From an uncultured Bacteroidota bacterium (GTDB taxonomy: Bacteria > Bacteroidota > Bacteroidia > 2-12-FULL-35-15): a stretch of DNA of 64,000 bases. The stretch covers positions 1-64,000 of the forward strand of contig CAIYIS010000002.1 of NCBI GenBank assembly GCA_903926385.1. Reading direction: 5' to 3'. The notes below the pieces were generated by a model that saw nothing but the letters and a program-made list of their open reading frames with translations, searched no databases and was not told the DNA's origin. Shown here in pieces: positions 22,481-30,584 of this stretch. The position numbers and the translations under genes were made by a program. Each line of letters begins with the position of its first letter. Position 1 is the stretch's first letter.

Positions 22481-22650
22481 ATTATCTTCCTCACGCTATC
22501 GCTTGCTCTCCTCCTACTCTACCTATATTATTTTATGGTCGATGGCATATTTTTGTCGTTTTTTATCATTTTTCGACATTTTAAGGGATATTTAGTGAAC
22601 CGTCAATTCTGTAATGCATTAAATTTCATCTTTTTTAGTAGAAAATCAAA

Positions 22651-22985
22651 GTAGGCGCTACTCGAACCAGAGTAGGAGCTACTCGAACACGAGTAGGAGC
22701 TACTCGGACAAGAGTAGGAGCTACTCGGACAAGAGTAGGAGCTACTCGGATAAGAGTAGGAGCTACTCGGATAAGAGTAGGAGCTACTCGGATAAGAGTA
22801 GGAGCTACTCGGATAAGAGTAGGAGCTACTCGGATAAGAGTAGGCGCTACTCGGACAAGAGTGGGAGCTACTCGGATAAGAGAGGGAGCTACTCGGATAC
22901 GGTAGGAGCTACTCGGATAAGAGTAGGAACAACTCAGCAGTTTGATTGAATAACTCAGCATTTTGATTGAACAATTCAAGATTTT
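22651..22985. repeat. tandem array C: 16 units of 21 bp
   Basis: Units start at 22651, 22672 and every 21 bp. One 20-bp unit occurs (22882-22901) and the following units then resume 21 bp. The core is GTAGGAGCTACTCGGA. Each unit boundary forms GAGTAG-GAG-CTACTC, a dyad with 6-bp arms. The three last units (22923, 22944, 22965) have decayed to GATTGAA...CTCAGCATTTT-like sequence but still keep the 21-bp step. Middle units are near identical while the edges are worn. Confidence 0.92.
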
Positions 22986-23285: not shown

Positions 23286-25652
23286 GTGCGTAAAACAAAA
23301 AGCAACGTAATCTTGTTTCTCCTTTGCCTGTTTACAGCGTCAGTATATGGTCAGGCACTAAATAAGGATATTGAAGTAACTGTTACCGATAATCCTTTCA
23401 AAATAAAAATAACCGATACGTTTAAAGAAATAACTCTCTTGGAAACGGATGGCCCGGTAATGGTTCAGAACCTTACTAATAACATTCCTTACAAAAAAGC
23501 ACCGTATATAAGATGGAAACCGGGCAAAACAAAATACATTCGAACAGCTGACAGAGTGCTGAATAAGTCGGTTAACAATGGATGGAATGTATTTCAATTA
23601 ACCAATCAGGACAACTTGCCGATAGTAAATTTCAGATATAAGCTTGACGAAAACAACATTCTTAAACTTGAGTTTGAAGAAATCAATCCTCCTCTTGTAA
23701 CCGAATTTCAACATTCTCGTATCACAGTTCATTTCAAATCGGACACTGCCGATAGTTATCTGGGCATGGGTATGCGTTTTGACCAATGTAATCATTACGG
23801 CACCATTGTTACCAACTGGTGTGACGAAGTAGGAATCAATGCACCTGTTATTGCAAAAAACAAAACACCCGAAGGCAGAGATATTACCTATGCACCTGTT
23901 CCCTTTTTTGTGAATCTGAAAGGATATGGATTGTTGCTGAACAGTTATTATTACAGCGTTTTTGATTTTGCAAAAACAAATTCTAATCAGTTTGGATTAA
24001 CCAATAACACTTCTAATCTAAATCTGCAAATGTATTTTGGTAACACTCCTGTGGATATAGTAGGCAGTTATTATAAATCTACCGGACAGTACAAACTCCC
24101 TAAACCATGGGTATTCGGAGTGTGGGCTGCGGCATCTGTCGATTTTCTTTCGAACAAAACTTCAGAAGAAATTAATTATTCAGTGCTCAAAAAGTGTCGC
24201 GACAACAGAATTCCATTGAGTGCAATAATGGCCGAAGACTGGTACTTTACATTCTTTAAGTTTCCTCCTTTGGATGCATGGGAACTCAACAGAGATGAAT
24301 ATCCTAATTACGAACGAATGATAGCAGACCAACATAAAATGGGAGTTAAACATATTTCCTATTTTCTTTCCTACCTTTCCGAAGGCTCTGCATTTGCCGA
24401 AAGTAAAGTGTTTGATGAAGCAAAAAAGGAAAAGTATTTTACTAAAAATAAAAAAGGAGAACCTTACCTGTTCGATTATTTTGTTTGGGACGAAGCGCAG
24501 ATAGATGTATCAAATCCTAAAGCTGTAGATTGGTTTCAAACCAAGTTTTATGCTCAATCTGCTAAATGGGGTTGCGATGGATGGATGAATGATTTTGGGG
24601 AATACACACCTTACGATTCGCATTCGTATAATGGCGAATTGGGCTTAACCATGCACAACCGTTATCCTTTATTATGGGCAAAAATGGCAAGAGATTTTTG
24701 GGATAAAACAAAGCCTGATGGCGATTACTGTTTTTTCTCCCGAAGTGGCTACATTGGTCAGCTAAGTAATTCATCTTTTATTTTTACTGGTGATAGAAAT
24801 GCAAACTATGAGCCCCTTTCGGGAATGGGAGGTGAAATAACAGGAGTATTATCGGGCAGTATGTCGGCACATCCCAATATATCAATAGATATAGGGCCTT
24901 ACAATTGTGATGGAAATCCTCCAATGGGAAAACTGATGATGTTTCGTTGGATAGAATTAGGAGCCATGATTCCCGTTATGCGATTGCACAGAGGTTTGCA
25001 ACTTTGCGACCATTGGCGATTCGACAGTGACAAAGAAACATTGGAACAATGGAAAAAGTATGCAACACTGCACGCGCAGTTTTTTCCATATATCTATACA
25101 CTCGGCAAACAAGCCGAAGACAAAGGTTGGCCTATGCTTCGTCCGCTTTCGTTTTATAACACTACCGATAAACAATCTTTAAAAACAGAATACGAATTTT
25201 TGTTGGGAGACAGAGTACTGGTGGCTCCTGTGATAACAGAAGTGATTCCAAAAACTCAATCGGACATGAGTATTGCTCGCGATTCGAACAATGTATATTT
25301 GCCAGAAGGCAATTGGTATCATTACTGGAGTAATCAAAAATTTGCAGGAAAAAGAAGCTATACCGTGTTTGCCAAACCCGGCTATTTACCTTTATTTATC
25401 AAAGAAGGAACCATTCTTCCTTTGTTCGACAAACCCATTGATACTTTTGTGGAAGGAGTGGAAGACGATAGAATTAACGATTTTGAAAAAGTAAATCAAT
25501 CCATCGAAATCAGATTTTACGGATATGGTAAAAATAAAATCACACTGTGGGATGGAACAGAAATAGAATGCAGCCGCGACAAAGGGAAAATAGGTGATAT
25601 GAAAGTTACCAATGAGCACAACAGAGTTTACAAATCAGTATTCATTGATTAA
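23286..25652 (+). CDS. glycoside hydrolase family 31, YihQ-like active site
   Basis: Secreted or periplasmic alpha-glycosidase: signal peptide MRKTKSNVILFLLCLFTASV ending before Gln, then a beta-sandwich (about 30-270), a catalytic barrel (about 275-600) and C-terminal beta-domains. The nucleophile is Asp436 in GWMNDFGEY; the acid/base is Asp503 in FTGDRN. The spacing of 67 residues and the DGWMNDFGEY motif resemble the GH31 branch that includes sulfoquinovosidase YihQ, but the sugar specificity is not settled. Starts with GTG; no in-frame ATG fits the signal peptide better. First gene of a locus with a barrel protein (12 nt downstream) and two GH5 enzymes. Confidence 0.88.
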   Translation: MRKTKSNVILFLLCLFTASVYGQALNKDIEVTVTDNPFKIKITDTFKEITLLETDGPVMVQNLTNNIPYKKAPYIRWKPGKTKYIRTADRVLNKSVNNGWNVFQLTNQDNLPIVNFRYKLDENNILKLEFEEINPPLVTEFQHSRITVHFKSDTADSYLGMGMRFDQCNHYGTIVTNWCDEVGINAPVIAKNKTPEGRDITYAPVPFFVNLKGYGLLLNSYYYSVFDFAKTNSNQFGLTNNTSNLNLQMYFGNTPVDIVGSYYKSTGQYKLPKPWVFGVWAAASVDFLSNKTSEEINYSVLKKCRDNRIPLSAIMAEDWYFTFFKFPPLDAWELNRDEYPNYERMIADQHKMGVKHISYFLSYLSEGSAFAESKVFDEAKKEKYFTKNKKGEPYLFDYFVWDEAQIDVSNPKAVDWFQTKFYAQSAKWGCDGWMNDFGEYTPYDSHSYNGELGLTMHNRYPLLWAKMARDFWDKTKPDGDYCFFSRSGYIGQLSNSSFIFTGDRNANYEPLSGMGGEITGVLSGSMSAHPNISIDIGPYNCDGNPPMGKLMMFRWIELGAMIPVMRLHRGLQLCDHWRFDSDKETLEQWKKYATLHAQFFPYIYTLGKQAEDKGWPMLRPLSFYNTTDKQSLKTEYEFLLGDRVLVAPVITEVIPKTQSDMSIARDSNNVYLPEGNWYHYWSNQKFAGKRSYTVFAKPGYLPLFIKEGTILPLFDKPIDTFVEGVEDDRINDFEKVNQSIEIRFYGYGKNKITLWDGTEIECSRDKGKIGDMKVTNEHNRVYKSVFID

Positions 25653-25664
25653 TAAAATAGGATA

Positions 25665-26726
25665 ATGAAACCGATAAATAAATACACACTTTTGTTTTTT
25701 CTTATTTTCTTTATCTCGTCATCCTGCGTATTTGGTCAGCAGAAAGACAGTGTTGAAAGCAGAAGAAAAACAGTAGTAAAACTAAAACTACCCATAACAC
25801 TCGGCCTAACCGGTGCAGCATTTCCGGGAATGACTTCTGTTAAAGATTCGAATCACTATGGATTTTCAAATGCAAGTTTAAATCTTAATATCCCCATTTT
25901 TTTTCGACTTAAATTAGGCGACTTAAGAAATCCGATTAAGTACAGTACTTTATTTTTAAGCAGTTCTACAGGGTATAGTCAGTTTGCACCATCATCAGGC
26001 ATTCCCGGAAACCCTGTGTATTCTCAGATGCTTGGATTTACGTATTTAAAAGGAGAGTTAAAGCGCAATTATATTGCGGGTATATATGCATTCGAAAATG
26101 CGGATGAAAAAAGATTTTTGGATGCTCCGCCCGGTATTGCAGGACTGTTTCTGTACTCCTATACTACCTATCATAAAAACACAATTATTGCAGGCGCTGG
26201 CTTATTAGCAAGCAATGGAAGTATTTTAGGATGTCCGGTGATAGGTTATTTAGGAAAGATAAGCTCTAAATGGTCTTATCTCATCGTTCTTCCTGCTGTG
26301 GCTTCTGTTAATTACAAACCGAATCAAAAAAACAGCATCAGTTTACTGCTTGCTCCGCAAGGAAATTACTTTAAACTAAAAGGCGATTCTGTATCATTTG
26401 CTGATTCCACTGCAAAACTTAAAAACTTTACACTTCAAACAGGCTCCATAAAAACAGGATTTTCGTGGACACGAAAACTTGCAACCCGATTTGAATTATA
26501 TGCCGAAGCAGGATTTTTGATTGGTAACAGCATGTCTGTTTTTAATGACGATTTCAGATTGAAAGAAGACATGGGCATGTCCACTTATTTCCAAATTGGT
26601 TTAACCATTAATCTTACCAAAACTAAAGTAAAGCAGGACGGAGGTACTAAAGACAGCACAAATCCATTAAAGAAACAGAACTTTAATCCATCCATGTATA
26701 ACATTGAACGAATCTTTCTGGAGTAA
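25665..26726 (+). CDS. predicted outer-membrane beta-barrel protein, homologous to the C-terminal half of the GH5 fusion at 28293
   Basis: Signal peptide of 24 residues, then about 329 residues of alternating polar/hydrophobic strands with aromatic girdle residues (for example SLNLNIPIFFRLKLG, YIAGIYAFENADEKRFLDA, STYFQIGLTINL), as expected for an outer-membrane beta-barrel. From the first mature residue (QQKDSVESRRK) to the end (NIERIFLE) it aligns with residues 406-738 of the protein at 28293. No characterised family recognised with certainty. It sits between the GH31 and GH5 genes and may be a channel or anchor for the glycan-degrading enzymes. Confidence 0.7.
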   Translation: MKPINKYTLLFFLIFFISSSCVFGQQKDSVESRRKTVVKLKLPITLGLTGAAFPGMTSVKDSNHYGFSNASLNLNIPIFFRLKLGDLRNPIKYSTLFLSSSTGYSQFAPSSGIPGNPVYSQMLGFTYLKGELKRNYIAGIYAFENADEKRFLDAPPGIAGLFLYSYTTYHKNTIIAGAGLLASNGSILGCPVIGYLGKISSKWSYLIVLPAVASVNYKPNQKNSISLLLAPQGNYFKLKGDSVSFADSTAKLKNFTLQTGSIKTGFSWTRKLATRFELYAEAGFLIGNSMSVFNDDFRLKEDMGMSTYFQIGLTINLTKTKVKQDGGTKDSTNPLKKQNFNPSMYNIERIFLE

Positions 26727-26771: not shown

Positions 26772-28271
26772 ATGAATACAAGTAAAACATACAAATCAAC
26801 AAGACCTCTTTTATTTTTATTGCTTTTAACTATCGTTGTTTCAAACATACAGGCACAAGCGGTATGGAACAACACTTCATTTGTTCACCGAAGTGGTCAA
26901 CAAATTTTAGATGGTCAAAACAACGCTATTCGATTGGATGGTGTAAATCTTGGTGGATGGTTGTTGTGGGAAAGTTGGATTTGGGGAGGAGGATTTCAGT
27001 CGGAAACGACAATCAGAAACAAAATGGCAAGCGTTATTGGCGTTACGGCTGCAAAAGCGTTTAGGGATTCTGTTTACAAAAGTTATATTACACGGGAAGA
27101 CCTTAAAAAAATCTCAGAAGAATGTTTCAATGTAGTTCGTGTAAATTTAAATCACACTATACTTGAAGACGATTCTATTCCATACGTATATAAACAGAGT
27201 GGCTGGATTTTATTAGACAGCATTTTACAATGGTGTGAAGATTATAATGTCTATGCGGTACTTGATATGCATTCAGCACCCGGTGCACAGGCAGCCGGAT
27301 TTTTTTGTGAAGACCCTGATTCAATATGTTTATGGCAATCTCCCATAAAAAAAGACCGAACAGTAAAATTATGGAAAGCGATTGCTGACAGGTATAAAAA
27401 TCGTGGTATTGTTGCGGGCTATGACTTACTCGGTGAGCCCAATGTGGCTAATGGTGCTGACCTGCTTAATTTATACACTACTATTATTGACAGTATTCGC
27501 TCGGTAGACACCCATCACATGATACAGCTGGAGGGGAACGATTATTCTAAGGACTTCAGTATTTTTTCTTCTTTGCCCGACCCGAATGTTTGCTTCCATT
27601 TTCATTTCTACACCTGGCTGATTCCTACTGCACAACTTGGAACTAGTTTAAATGTTTATACAAATTGGTCAAACACATTCAATGTCCCTTTATGGTGTGG
27701 CGAATGGGGGGAAAACGATTTGGCTACGCTCGACACTACGCGTAAATTATTAAATGACCCTGCATATAAAATCAGCGGCAGTGCTTTCTGGACGTGGAAA
27801 AAGCAATGGAAGCTAATTCAATATCCTCATTATATGGGCTATTTTGGCTCTACCAATTGGGACAAAGTTACCGCCTGGATTGACACCAGCAGCAATCCGA
27901 TGCCAACAGCATTAGAAATGCAGCAAGGAATAACTGATTTTTTTACAAATATTAAATCACCAAATTGCTGGTTTAATACAACTACAAGCGATCTTTTAAA
28001 GGTTTGTGCACCTGTTAGTATAAAAGAAGAAGCACAAAACAACTTTAGTATTTATCCAAACCCTTTCACATCGCAGACCACAATTTCGTTTAATGAGGAA
28101 CAGAAAAACACACTAATCAGAATACGAGATATACTTGGCAAAGAAATAAAAACAATAAAATTTAATGGCAAACAACTGATAATAGACAGAGGAGAAATGC
28201 AGGCAGGGATCTATTTTGTGAGGGTGATAAGTGAAAAGGGAGAAATGAACCGAAAAATAGTGGTGGAATAG
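26772..28271 (+). CDS. secreted GH5-like glycosidase with T9SS type A sorting domain
   Basis: Signal peptide (about 1-27), a GH5 (clan GH-A) barrel (about 30-415) and a T9SS type A C-terminal domain (about 425-499; FSIYPNPFTSQTTISF ... GIYFVRVISEKGEM). The N-terminal LDGVNLGGWL recalls exo-beta-1,3-glucanase-like GH5 enzymes. The acid/base Glu is E222 in YDLLGEPN and the nucleophile E311 in WCGEWGEND. The Asn that almost always precedes the acid/base Glu (NEP) is Gly here, which may weaken or alter activity. Paralog of the next gene. A promoter-like TAATTTTG (26734-26741) precedes it. Confidence 0.85.
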   Translation: MNTSKTYKSTRPLLFLLLLTIVVSNIQAQAVWNNTSFVHRSGQQILDGQNNAIRLDGVNLGGWLLWESWIWGGGFQSETTIRNKMASVIGVTAAKAFRDSVYKSYITREDLKKISEECFNVVRVNLNHTILEDDSIPYVYKQSGWILLDSILQWCEDYNVYAVLDMHSAPGAQAAGFFCEDPDSICLWQSPIKKDRTVKLWKAIADRYKNRGIVAGYDLLGEPNVANGADLLNLYTTIIDSIRSVDTHHMIQLEGNDYSKDFSIFSSLPDPNVCFHFHFYTWLIPTAQLGTSLNVYTNWSNTFNVPLWCGEWGENDLATLDTTRKLLNDPAYKISGSAFWTWKKQWKLIQYPHYMGYFGSTNWDKVTAWIDTSSNPMPTALEMQQGITDFFTNIKSPNCWFNTTTSDLLKVCAPVSIKEEAQNNFSIYPNPFTSQTTISFNEEQKNTLIRIRDILGKEIKTIKFNGKQLIIDRGEMQAGIYFVRVISEKGEMNRKIVVE

Positions 28272-28292: not shown

Positions 28293-30509
28293 ATGAAAAA
28301 AGTGTTTTTTCTTGTAGTCTTTGTCGCGACATTCTTTACAGTTAAAGCACAAGCTGTTTGGAATAATACCTCTTTTGTTCATCGCAGTAATCAACAAATA
28401 CTGGATGGAAAGAACAATGTAATTAAATTAGATGGCTTTAACCTTGGAGCGTGGTTGAATTGGGAGGGCTGGATGTGGGGCGGTGGTTTTACACCGGAAA
28501 AAGAAATGAATAAAAGTATGGTAAGTATAATCGGAAATACTGCAATGGATTCATTTAAAGATACCGTTTATAAAAACTTTATCACACGAGCTGATATAAA
28601 AAAAATTGCTCAATTAGGATTTAATGTAGTTAGAGTTCCTTTTAACCATACTCTTTTAGAGGACGACCTTGCACCTTTTGTTTACAAAAAATCGGGCTGG
28701 ACAATTTTAGACAGTGTATTAAAATGGTGTGAAGATTTTAATGTGTACGCTGTTCTCGACCTTCATTCTGTGCCGGGAGGAGCATCGCCTACTTACACGT
28801 CCGACCCGGATTCAATAACCTTATGGCAGTCGGATTTGAATAAAAAACGTACCGTAGAAACATGGAAAGCTATGGCCAGACGATACAGAAACAGAGGTAT
28901 TGTGGCAGGTTATGATTTGATTAATGAGCCAAATGTAACTAACCAAGCGGAGTTAATTGCAATGTATAATACCATCATTGATAGTATTCGACTGGTAGAT
29001 ACTAAACACATGTTTTTTTTGGAAGGAAATAATTATGCACAAGATTTTAGTATGTTTAATTCATTGCATGATCAAAATACATGTTTTGAATTTCATGTGT
29101 ACACCTGGTTTTATAGTAATAAAATTGCAGAAAATTTACTTCAATACACAACATTATCCCAAAAGCTAAACGCTCCTGTATGGTGCGGTGAATGGGGCGA
29201 AAACAACTTAAGCCAGTTAGATGCTACCATAAAAATATTAAAGAATCCAAAAAATAATTTTAGCGGACAAGCTTTTTGGACATGGAAAAAAATGAAAAGT
29301 GCTTTGCAACTTCCGGGTCAGGTTAATTACCCCTTTTTGGTAGGCATTGATAATACTCCCGAATGGGATAAAGTGAGTACATGGATAAATAATAAAAATG
29401 CGGATAAGCCAACAAAAAAAGAAACAGAAGAAGGAATCAAAAAGTTCACTCAATCCATAAAATTAAAAAACTGCTCACTCAATAGTACGCTATTAGATAT
29501 TTTGAAACAAACAAAAGACACCACCTATACTGAACACTCATCTTCTGTCAAATTTAATTTTCCGAGTATTCTTTCGCTAAGTGGTGCAGCATATCCGGGC
29601 ATGTCGTCAGTGCCAGAATCAAACAACTATAATTTTTATAATGGCACGTTAACCTTAACCTTTCCACTGTTTGCAAAACTGCATTTAGGTACTTTGAAAA
29701 AACCAATACGCTACAGTGGTTTGTTTTGCTCAGGCTCTGCAGGTGTTGCCAACTTTCAATCTTCAACTAACATTTCGCCTTTGCCCTTATACTCCGGATT
29801 TTTAGGGTTAACCTATATAAAAGGGTCAATAAAGAATAATTATATTGCAGGGATTTACGCATTTGAAAATGCTGATCAAAACAGATTTTTAGATGCCTCT
29901 CCAAGTATCGCAGGATTGTTTTTATACGCTCATCAAAACCGTAGAAACAACACCTTTATTGCTGGCGGGGGGGTGTTGGTATTTAATAATAATGGGTTTG
30001 CTGTCCCAGTAATTGGTTACATCGGTAAAATAAGTGAGAAATTTTCATTTCTGGTTATTCTACCTGTAGTAGCTACATTAAACTTTAAACCAAATGAAAA
30101 TAATCGGTTCAGTTTGATATTCGGCCCTCAGGGCAATTTTTATAAATTGAAGGGGAATACCTTTTCAATAGCCGATACAACCGTAAACTGGAACAAAATA
30201 AACCTACAAACCGGTGCAATAAAAAATGGGTTTTCGTGGAGTAAAAAAATAAATAATCAATTTGAATGGTATAGTGAAGCAGGTATTTTGGTCGGTAATA
30301 GCATCACCTTAACCAACAACGAAACTGTACTGAAAGAAGCAACACTCCCTTCGATTTATGTTCAAATTGGATTAACCATTACACTTAATCCAAATCGATT
30401 AGAAACCGGTTTGAAGCAATCTAACGAACGAAAACAGGTTGATAAGAATTTTAATAAGCAAAAAACAAACCCATCTATTTTTAATATCGAAAGGATATTT
30501 TTGGATTAA
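28293..30509 (+). CDS. GH5-like glycosidase fused to an outer-membrane beta-barrel domain
   Basis: A 738-residue fusion. Signal peptide (1-18), GH5 barrel (about 19-405) with intact NEP (acid/base E212 in YDLINEPN) and nucleophile E300 in WCGEWGENN, then a barrel-like domain (406-738) that aligns with the entire mature protein encoded at 25665, starting QTKDTTYTEHSSS against QQKDSVESRRKTV and ending NIERIFLD against NIERIFLE. There is no T9SS tail in the protein, unlike its GH5 paralog, but a remnant of one follows the stop (30510-30584). N-terminal passenger plus C-terminal barrel recalls autotransporter layout; whether the enzyme faces the periplasm or the outside is unknown. A good SD (AAGGAG, 28285-28290) precedes the ATG. 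Confidence 0.82.
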   Translation: MKKVFFLVVFVATFFTVKAQAVWNNTSFVHRSNQQILDGKNNVIKLDGFNLGAWLNWEGWMWGGGFTPEKEMNKSMVSIIGNTAMDSFKDTVYKNFITRADIKKIAQLGFNVVRVPFNHTLLEDDLAPFVYKKSGWTILDSVLKWCEDFNVYAVLDLHSVPGGASPTYTSDPDSITLWQSDLNKKRTVETWKAMARRYRNRGIVAGYDLINEPNVTNQAELIAMYNTIIDSIRLVDTKHMFFLEGNNYAQDFSMFNSLHDQNTCFEFHVYTWFYSNKIAENLLQYTTLSQKLNAPVWCGEWGENNLSQLDATIKILKNPKNNFSGQAFWTWKKMKSALQLPGQVNYPFLVGIDNTPEWDKVSTWINNKNADKPTKKETEEGIKKFTQSIKLKNCSLNSTLLDILKQTKDTTYTEHSSSVKFNFPSILSLSGAAYPGMSSVPESNNYNFYNGTLTLTFPLFAKLHLGTLKKPIRYSGLFCSGSAGVANFQSSTNISPLPLYSGFLGLTYIKGSIKNNYIAGIYAFENADQNRFLDASPSIAGLFLYAHQNRRNNTFIAGGGVLVFNNNGFAVPVIGYIGKISEKFSFLVILPVVATLNFKPNENNRFSLIFGPQGNFYKLKGNTFSIADTTVNWNKINLQTGAIKNGFSWSKKINNQFEWYSEAGILVGNSITLTNNETVLKEATLPSIYVQIGLTITLNPNRLETGLKQSNERKQVDKNFNKQKTNPSIFNIERIFLD

Positions 30510-30584
30510 ATGAATTGTATTTATTTCCTGCAGACAACAAATGAAATGAAAAATGTAGTGAATAGAAAAATAGTGGTGCAGTAA
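30510..30584 (+). pseudogene. remnant of a T9SS type A sorting-domain end after the GH5-barrel gene
   Basis: Immediately after the stop codon (30507-30509), ATG 30510 opens a 24-codon frame containing IYFLQ and, further on, NRKIVVQ before TAA. The paralogous GH5 at 26772 ends with GIYFVRV ... MNRKIVVE. The match covers the whole short frame with one or two single-residue gaps. I read it as the last part of the sorting tail that this gene carried before the barrel was inserted; it is too short to be a functional gene. Confidence 0.7.

Follow-up and report, generated by a model that had tools for sequence, protein, structure and literature searches.

The window analyzed here, a stretch of 64,000 nt (contig CAIYIS010000002.1, positions 1 to 64,000), contains a gene in which a GH5 glycoside hydrolase is joined, in a single reading frame, to a β-barrel that stands in place of the T9SS C-terminal sorting domain (CTD) of its neighboring paralog. 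Homologous fusions occur in other lineages, and judging from sequence comparison, the GH5-barrel fusion is a real and maintained design that is also found in distantly related freshwater bacteria. We see about an even chance that this one polypeptide combines an outer-membrane sugar channel with a periplasmic hydrolase, a partner porin having taken the place of a T9SS enzyme's surface-export signal, which would have shifted the enzyme across the outer membrane, from its outer to its inner side. The reading that we favor, with a probability of roughly 0.6, is that of an enzyme-porin fusion whose GH5 domain lies in the periplasm, tethered at the channel's inner opening; it is preferred over surface display of the enzyme and over a pure anchoring role for the barrel. 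In the literature searched, no fusion of a glycoside hydrolase with a porin-like barrel was described.

Architecture of the fusion gene and its locus

The fusion gene is the last of four in a row on the + strand, encoding a GH31 enzyme, a stand-alone barrel, a GH5 enzyme with a CTD, and the fusion, with gaps of 12 to 45 bases between them (Table 1). Residues 17 to 416 of the fusion share 55% identity with the GH5 paralog encoded at 26772, and Pfam assigns both proteins to Cellulase/GH5. The predicted structure of this part is a (β/α)8 fold, for which GH5 structures head the fold search, the best match being 9ku5, a GH5_22 exo-β-xylosidase. The catalytic roles in Table 1, acid/base for E212 and nucleophile for E300, are ones that we presume from general knowledge of GH5 enzymes. 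The motifs around both glutamates, NEP and GEW(G), are conserved in the three homologous fusion loci described below (L054, L055, and L056), and with both motifs kept and a predicted GH5 fold, the GH5 domain of the fusion is intact.

Table 1. Features of the fusion gene and of adjoining genes (positions in the window)
Feature	Position	Strand	Basis
GH31 enzyme (signal peptide present, CTD absent), first of the run GH31-barrel-GH5-fusion	23286..25652	+	Profile matches
Stand-alone barrel belonging to the family of the fused one	25665..26726	+	Alignment, AlphaFold; orthologue in G014, 84% identical as mature protein
Paralogous GH5 enzyme carrying a T9SS type A CTD at residues 427-498	26772..28271	+	Pfam
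GH5-barrel fusion CDS, 738 aa	28293..30509	+	Pfam and alignments; homologous full-length fusions L054, L055
Predicted Sec signal peptide, residues 1-19 (MKKVFFLVVFVATFFTVKA, followed by Q)	28293..28349	+	Read from sequence; same position in all GH5 relatives
GH5 catalytic domain, residues 20-405	28350..29507	+	Pfam PF00150 at residues 89-333, E 1.4e-28
Putative acid/base glutamate E212 (NEPN)	28926..28928	+	Motif kept in fusions; GEPN in paralog 26772
Putative nucleophile glutamate E300 (GEWG)	29190..29192	+	Motif kept in fusions and paralog 26772
Segment with 6-residue insertion (LQLPGQVNYP), only in fusion GH5s	29304..29333	+	GH5 alignment
Linker, last GH5 helix (398-406) to barrel strand 1 (418)	29508..29543	+	DSSP of AlphaFold model
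Predicted DUF6268-related, OmpG/CymA-like 14-stranded barrel, ~residues 418-702	29544..30398	+	AlphaFold model, fold search, homologue profiles
Conserved C-terminal peptide NPSIFNIERIFLD past the last strand	30468..30506	+	Identity among close barrels
Post-stop frame resembling the final 22 codons of a T9SS type A CTD plus its stop codon	30510..30584	+	Shuffle test; DNA 76-82% identical to other CTD tails of this genome

The second part of the protein corresponds to the barrel gene two positions upstream, as an initial sequence-only reading of this DNA had claimed. Residues 403 to 738 align with residues 22 to 353 of the 25665 product (170 of 336 positions identical, 51%; E = 6e-116), far above chance, and the alignment covers the whole mature barrel. 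The same reading had given the paralog a T9SS type A tail that the fusion lacks, and this too was borne out: Pfam places a Por_Secre_tail at residues 427 to 498 of the 26772 product and none in the fusion, in which neither Pfam nor NCBIfam found a C-terminal sorting domain. The window's genome encodes PorU (1335 bits), so T9SS export of the CTD-bearing enzyme is plausible. The fusion thus resembles T9SS type A cargo such as the 26772 product in its homologous GH5 domain and its signal peptide, but differs in having a barrel for a CTD, with only a relic of the tail end past its stop codon.

The order GH31, barrel, GH5-CTD recurs in the genome G014, where the GH31 and the barrel are 89% and 81% identical, respectively, to those in the window. 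Barrel and GH5 were therefore adjacent before the fusion or apart from it, and the repeated company of the barrel with GH31 and GH5-CTD genes ties it to sugar use. The GH31 enzyme has the sulfoquinovosidase YihQ as its closest PDB entry (E 1.2e-63); its nearest structures are of the sulfoquinovosidase/alpha-glucosidase kind, and its PRK10426 score does not reach the NCBIfam cut-off. A tandem array (22650 to 22935) with a 21-base unit, 13.7 copies, and 92% matches lies upstream of GH31 and yields a probably spurious frame on the - strand, RVAPTLIRVAPTL. A decayed locus in G026 (L061, contig C40, 7481 to 8890) consists of a GH31 fragment of 178 aa and a frameshifted barrel, with no GH5 following.

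The barrel and the likely position of the enzyme

Neither the 25665 product nor the barrel part of the fusion matched any Pfam family up to an E value of 1, and the barrel was likewise without a match in NCBIfam or among PDB sequences. It is linked to DUF6268 (PF19783) only through intermediate homologues: 14 of the 21 members of the barrel alignment match that family, resembling the barrel in length and in their conserved Pro and Gly residues. The DUF6268 frames in 395 genomes of the class, however, are all stand-alone and no longer than 435 aa, so by frame length there was no enzyme fusion among them, although the model also misses the window's own fusion. A literature search on DUF6268 found nothing related.

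An AlphaFold model of the stand-alone barrel, built with 26 homologues, shows a barrel fold as the sequence-only reading had expected (pLDDT 81). In a fold search with VIA-align, OmpG ranked first (Z 18.1; 203 residues, rmsd 2.6 Å, model residues 15 to 295 on OmpG 3 to 270) and CymA next (Z 17.5), with matches spanning 203 to 243 residues across the two; FadL-type, PorV, and autotransporter barrels scored well below. On the predicted model, the barrel has an OmpG/CymA-like fold with 14 strands, a count that depends on splitting a kinked region (residues 179 to 193) into two short strands. With that count, the mean length is 7.6 residues for loops opposite the termini and 4.7 for turns on the same side as the termini. 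The 14 strands, the longer loops opposite the termini, and the match to OmpG and CymA from first strand to last together argue that both ends of the barrel are periplasmic. OmpG and CymA are monomeric 14-stranded oligosaccharide channels. The likeness extends across the whole barrel (Z 17 to 18), but an identity of about 7% amounts to no sequence relation, and both proteins are proteobacterial and have no attached enzyme. Porin-like folds are widespread, and likeness in fold does not establish a function.

The last 13 residues of the barrel proteins (NPS-M/I/L-Y/F-NIER-I/L-F/Y-L-D/E; 26685 to 26723 and 30468 to 30506 in the window) are more conserved than the strands. Identity among close barrels is 0.75 in this peptide, versus 0.66 in the strands and 0.28 in the linker that precedes it, and the peptide could be a periplasmic docking or assembly signal.

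The AlphaFold model of the entire fusion is of moderate quality (pLDDT 72, pTM 0.52) and silent on the membrane side, which we deduced from strand order and from similar folds. In this model, the last GH5 helix ends at residue 406 and strand 1 begins at residue 418, leaving a linker of 11 residues; no helix lies between GH5 and strand 1 other than that last GH5 helix, none occupies the pore, and no POTRA domain is present. In a barrel of this type, a domain that precedes strand 1 is periplasmic unless it is threaded through the pore, and for threading, eleven residues would be barely enough. With periplasmic termini, so short a linker, and a pore free of a helix, the default place of the GH5 domain would be the periplasm.

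The mechanism that we infer, comprising a channel function, a periplasmic side, and a hand-over from channel to enzyme, would run as follows. After Sec export and removal of the signal peptide, the C-terminal domain would form a 14-stranded porin-like barrel in the outer membrane, and the N-terminal GH5 domain would fold in the periplasm, held by its linker at the channel's inner mouth. Oligosaccharides freed outside, for example by the T9SS-exported 26772 enzyme, would enter via the barrel; the tethered GH5 would cut them as they emerge, and the periplasmic GH31 would finish them. If the GH5 domain does sit at the inner mouth, a Bacteroidota barrel family without an assigned role would become linked to oligosaccharide uptake, and a single domain swap could change the compartment of a T9SS enzyme. 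The fusion would also be a naturally occurring model for joining uptake with digestion.

The sequence-only reading had instead proposed surface display, in which an autotransporter-like barrel or scaffold threads the GH5 domain to the outside and so replaces T9SS export. If so, the fusion would represent a novel type V-like display system, though we consider this unlikely. The layout of signal peptide, enzyme, and C-terminal barrel would suit it, the T9SS CTD of the paralog marks that protein as a surface enzyme, and autotransporter barrels do occur among the fold matches. Those barrels, however, score a Z of about 12 against 18 for OmpG, and type Va barrels have 12 strands and a pore helix, whereas the barrel predicted here is OmpG-like, with 14 strands, periplasmic termini, and an empty pore. 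The Autotransporter profile PF03797 matched none of the window proteins up to an E value of 1 (0.093 for one member of the barrel alignment). The short linker and the missing POTRA also weigh against display, as does the fact that the same barrel stands alone, without a passenger, both at 25665 and in G014.

It had also been stated that no system of this layout was described in Bacteroidota, which the literature contradicts: type Vd proteins, composed of a patatin, a POTRA domain, and a barrel, have been reported in Bacteroides fragilis (PMC4319957), so an enzyme-plus-barrel layout alone is not new in this phylum. Like the fusion, the type Vd proteins (PlpD, FplA; BF9343_2862) start with a signal peptide and an enzyme and end in a barrel, and they are found in Bacteroidota. 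They differ in their patatin, their POTRA, their 16-stranded barrel, and their surface-located passenger, whereas the fusion has a GH5 domain, fewer than 16 strands, and no POTRA, for which a linker of 11 residues leaves no room. The Omp85 profiles of Pfam and NCBIfam did not match.

Somewhat less probable again is a pure anchor of the PorP/SprF kind, with no channel role and with the enzyme merely fixed to the outer membrane. PorP/SprF barrels anchor type B CTD proteins, and such 14-stranded PorP-like barrels are present in Bacteroidota (PMC9143113); moreover, the barrel gene here lies directly upstream of a CTD-bearing GH5 gene, and PorV is among the fold matches (Z about 13). Against this, none of the 26 barrels matched any NCBIfam model, PorP/SprF included, the relatives of the family belong to DUF6268, the CTD of the neighboring GH5 is type A and not type B, and the barrel is absent beside most GH5-CTD genes of the genus.

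The periplasmic tethered enzyme is the reading that we prefer to either alternative. Outer-membrane pores are rarely fused to other domains (PMC4827864). The actinobacterial sphingomyelinase-channel fusion SpmT (TC 1.B.79) likewise joins a hydrolase to a putative outer-membrane pore, and there is evidence for transport of glucose and phosphocholine by its pore domain (PMC4827864). In SpmT, however, the pore is N-terminal and the enzyme C-terminal, and its domains and phylum are unrelated to those of the fusion.

Distribution and age of the fusion

A scan of GTDB genomes for further fusions, a search that the sequence-only reading had suggested, recovered full-length homologues at two loci, L054 (ErkenSummer_bin-3434) and L055 (Kiruna_bin-07023), along with a third, L056, that is partial because it ends at a contig end. 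The two complete proteins are 743 aa each and about 61% identical to the window fusion over residues 2 to 738. The only carriers found were the window's genome and the MAGs behind these three loci, and the genome of L054 (G252) belongs to another family of the class. In the GH5 tree, the fusions form one group (support 94/89), and all of them have a six-residue insertion that is missing from CTD-bearing GH5s. The junction is common to the two complete homologues (LLDILKQTKDT / LLEILIQNKDT). Because of the GH5 tree, the shared insertion, and the identical junction, we favor a single fusion event, as far as sequences can tell; the barrel tree (72/55; AU p = 0.285) did not discriminate a single origin from two.

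Fourfold-site identity between the window fusion and that of L054 is 0.34 against an expectation of 0.29, which means saturation, and a protein identity of 61% at saturated fourfold sites requires long purifying selection. The same full-length fusion, with the same junction, in two MAG loci of other lineages argues that it is no artefact. That the gene is a functionless product of a recent chance fusion or of an assembly error, as its rarity (the window's genome and the MAGs of L054, L055, and the partial L056) might suggest, is thus highly improbable given the identical junction in independent MAGs, the long purifying selection, and the two catalytic motifs intact in all copies, and the independent homologues L054 and L055 rule out an assembly artefact.

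The fused barrel had been taken for a copy of the neighboring one. The two are instead old homologues, with a fourfold-site identity of 0.31 against a random expectation of 0.26, again at saturation, and the fused barrel has its highest identity to the fused barrel of L055 (58%), versus 52% to the neighbor at 25665. A recent copy of the neighbor was rejected on both counts.

The sorting-domain remnant behind the stop codon

Immediately 3' of the fusion's stop codon, a 24-codon frame reads MNCIYFLQTTNEMKNVVNRKIVVQ and ends in a stop. We scored it against the 3' ends of twelve GH5-CTD genes, with 1,000 dinucleotide shuffles as the null. Its score of 52 (best tail G026c) compares with 25.7 ± 3.0 and a maximum of 42 for the shuffles, in agreement with the claim that the frame reads like the end of a T9SS tail, and among the regions after 42 window genes, only that of 26772 itself outscores it. 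Its closer matches are in sorting-domain tails of GH5 genes of the same genus, such as GIYFVQTTDEKKNVTNKKIIIQ in G026, rather than in the tail of 26772. The post-stop DNA of L054 and L055 aligns with the final codons and the 3' flank of a GH5-CTD gene at L057 (scores of 52 and 58 versus shuffle maxima of 34 and 44), and therefore the 3' end of a GH5-CTD-like gene trails the fusion gene in both lineages. A search of G252 for an L057-type tail was empty and uninformative.

The relic is 70 to 77% identical to functional tails. Against several of them, the differences fall mainly on third codon positions, the pattern of coding DNA (4, 2, and 11, and 7, 1, and 13 at positions 1, 2, and 3), and against two other tails the third-position excess is weak or absent (6, 3, and 7; 8, 3, and 5). 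The relic also resembles the CTD tails of unrelated genes in the same genome, where several unlinked loci have a matching 3' end, in at least four cases that of a CTD-bearing frame. It is a real CTD-tail remnant that still looks like recently coding DNA. Owing to that look, and because such tails are common to several T9SS genes, it need not date from the fusion event.

These data bear on the proposal that a mature barrel was inserted between the enzyme and the end of its sorting tail. Parts of that account stand: GH5 and a mature barrel share one frame, the T9SS tail was replaced, and the relic is real. A simple insertion does not, as the paralog's linker and about 50 residues of its CTD have no counterpart at the fusion, which makes the event at least a replacement. 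Nor is a single event for both fusion and relic supported, the fusion being older than synonymous saturation and the relic still so similar to working tails. Barrel insertion is possible as one history among others. The relic itself may derive either from recent loss from a functional gene, for example, deletion of a CTD-bearing gene downstream of the fusion, or from refreshment by recombination with other CTD tails.

The 3' ends of CTD genes at 30510 to 30584 of the window and on G000 contigs C57, C10, C83, C46, and C20 share 76 to 82% identical DNA over 40 to 70 bases, which looks like shuffling or homogenization of tails. A non-GH5 gene at L059 (4336 to 5976) has a CTD that is 63.5% identical to the GH5 CTD. 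The 3' flanks of the GH5 genes at L054 (2660 to 2960), L055 (3683 to 3960), and L057 (after 4059) contain GCTAACA...GTTAG-like stretches that recall the ends of gene cassettes.
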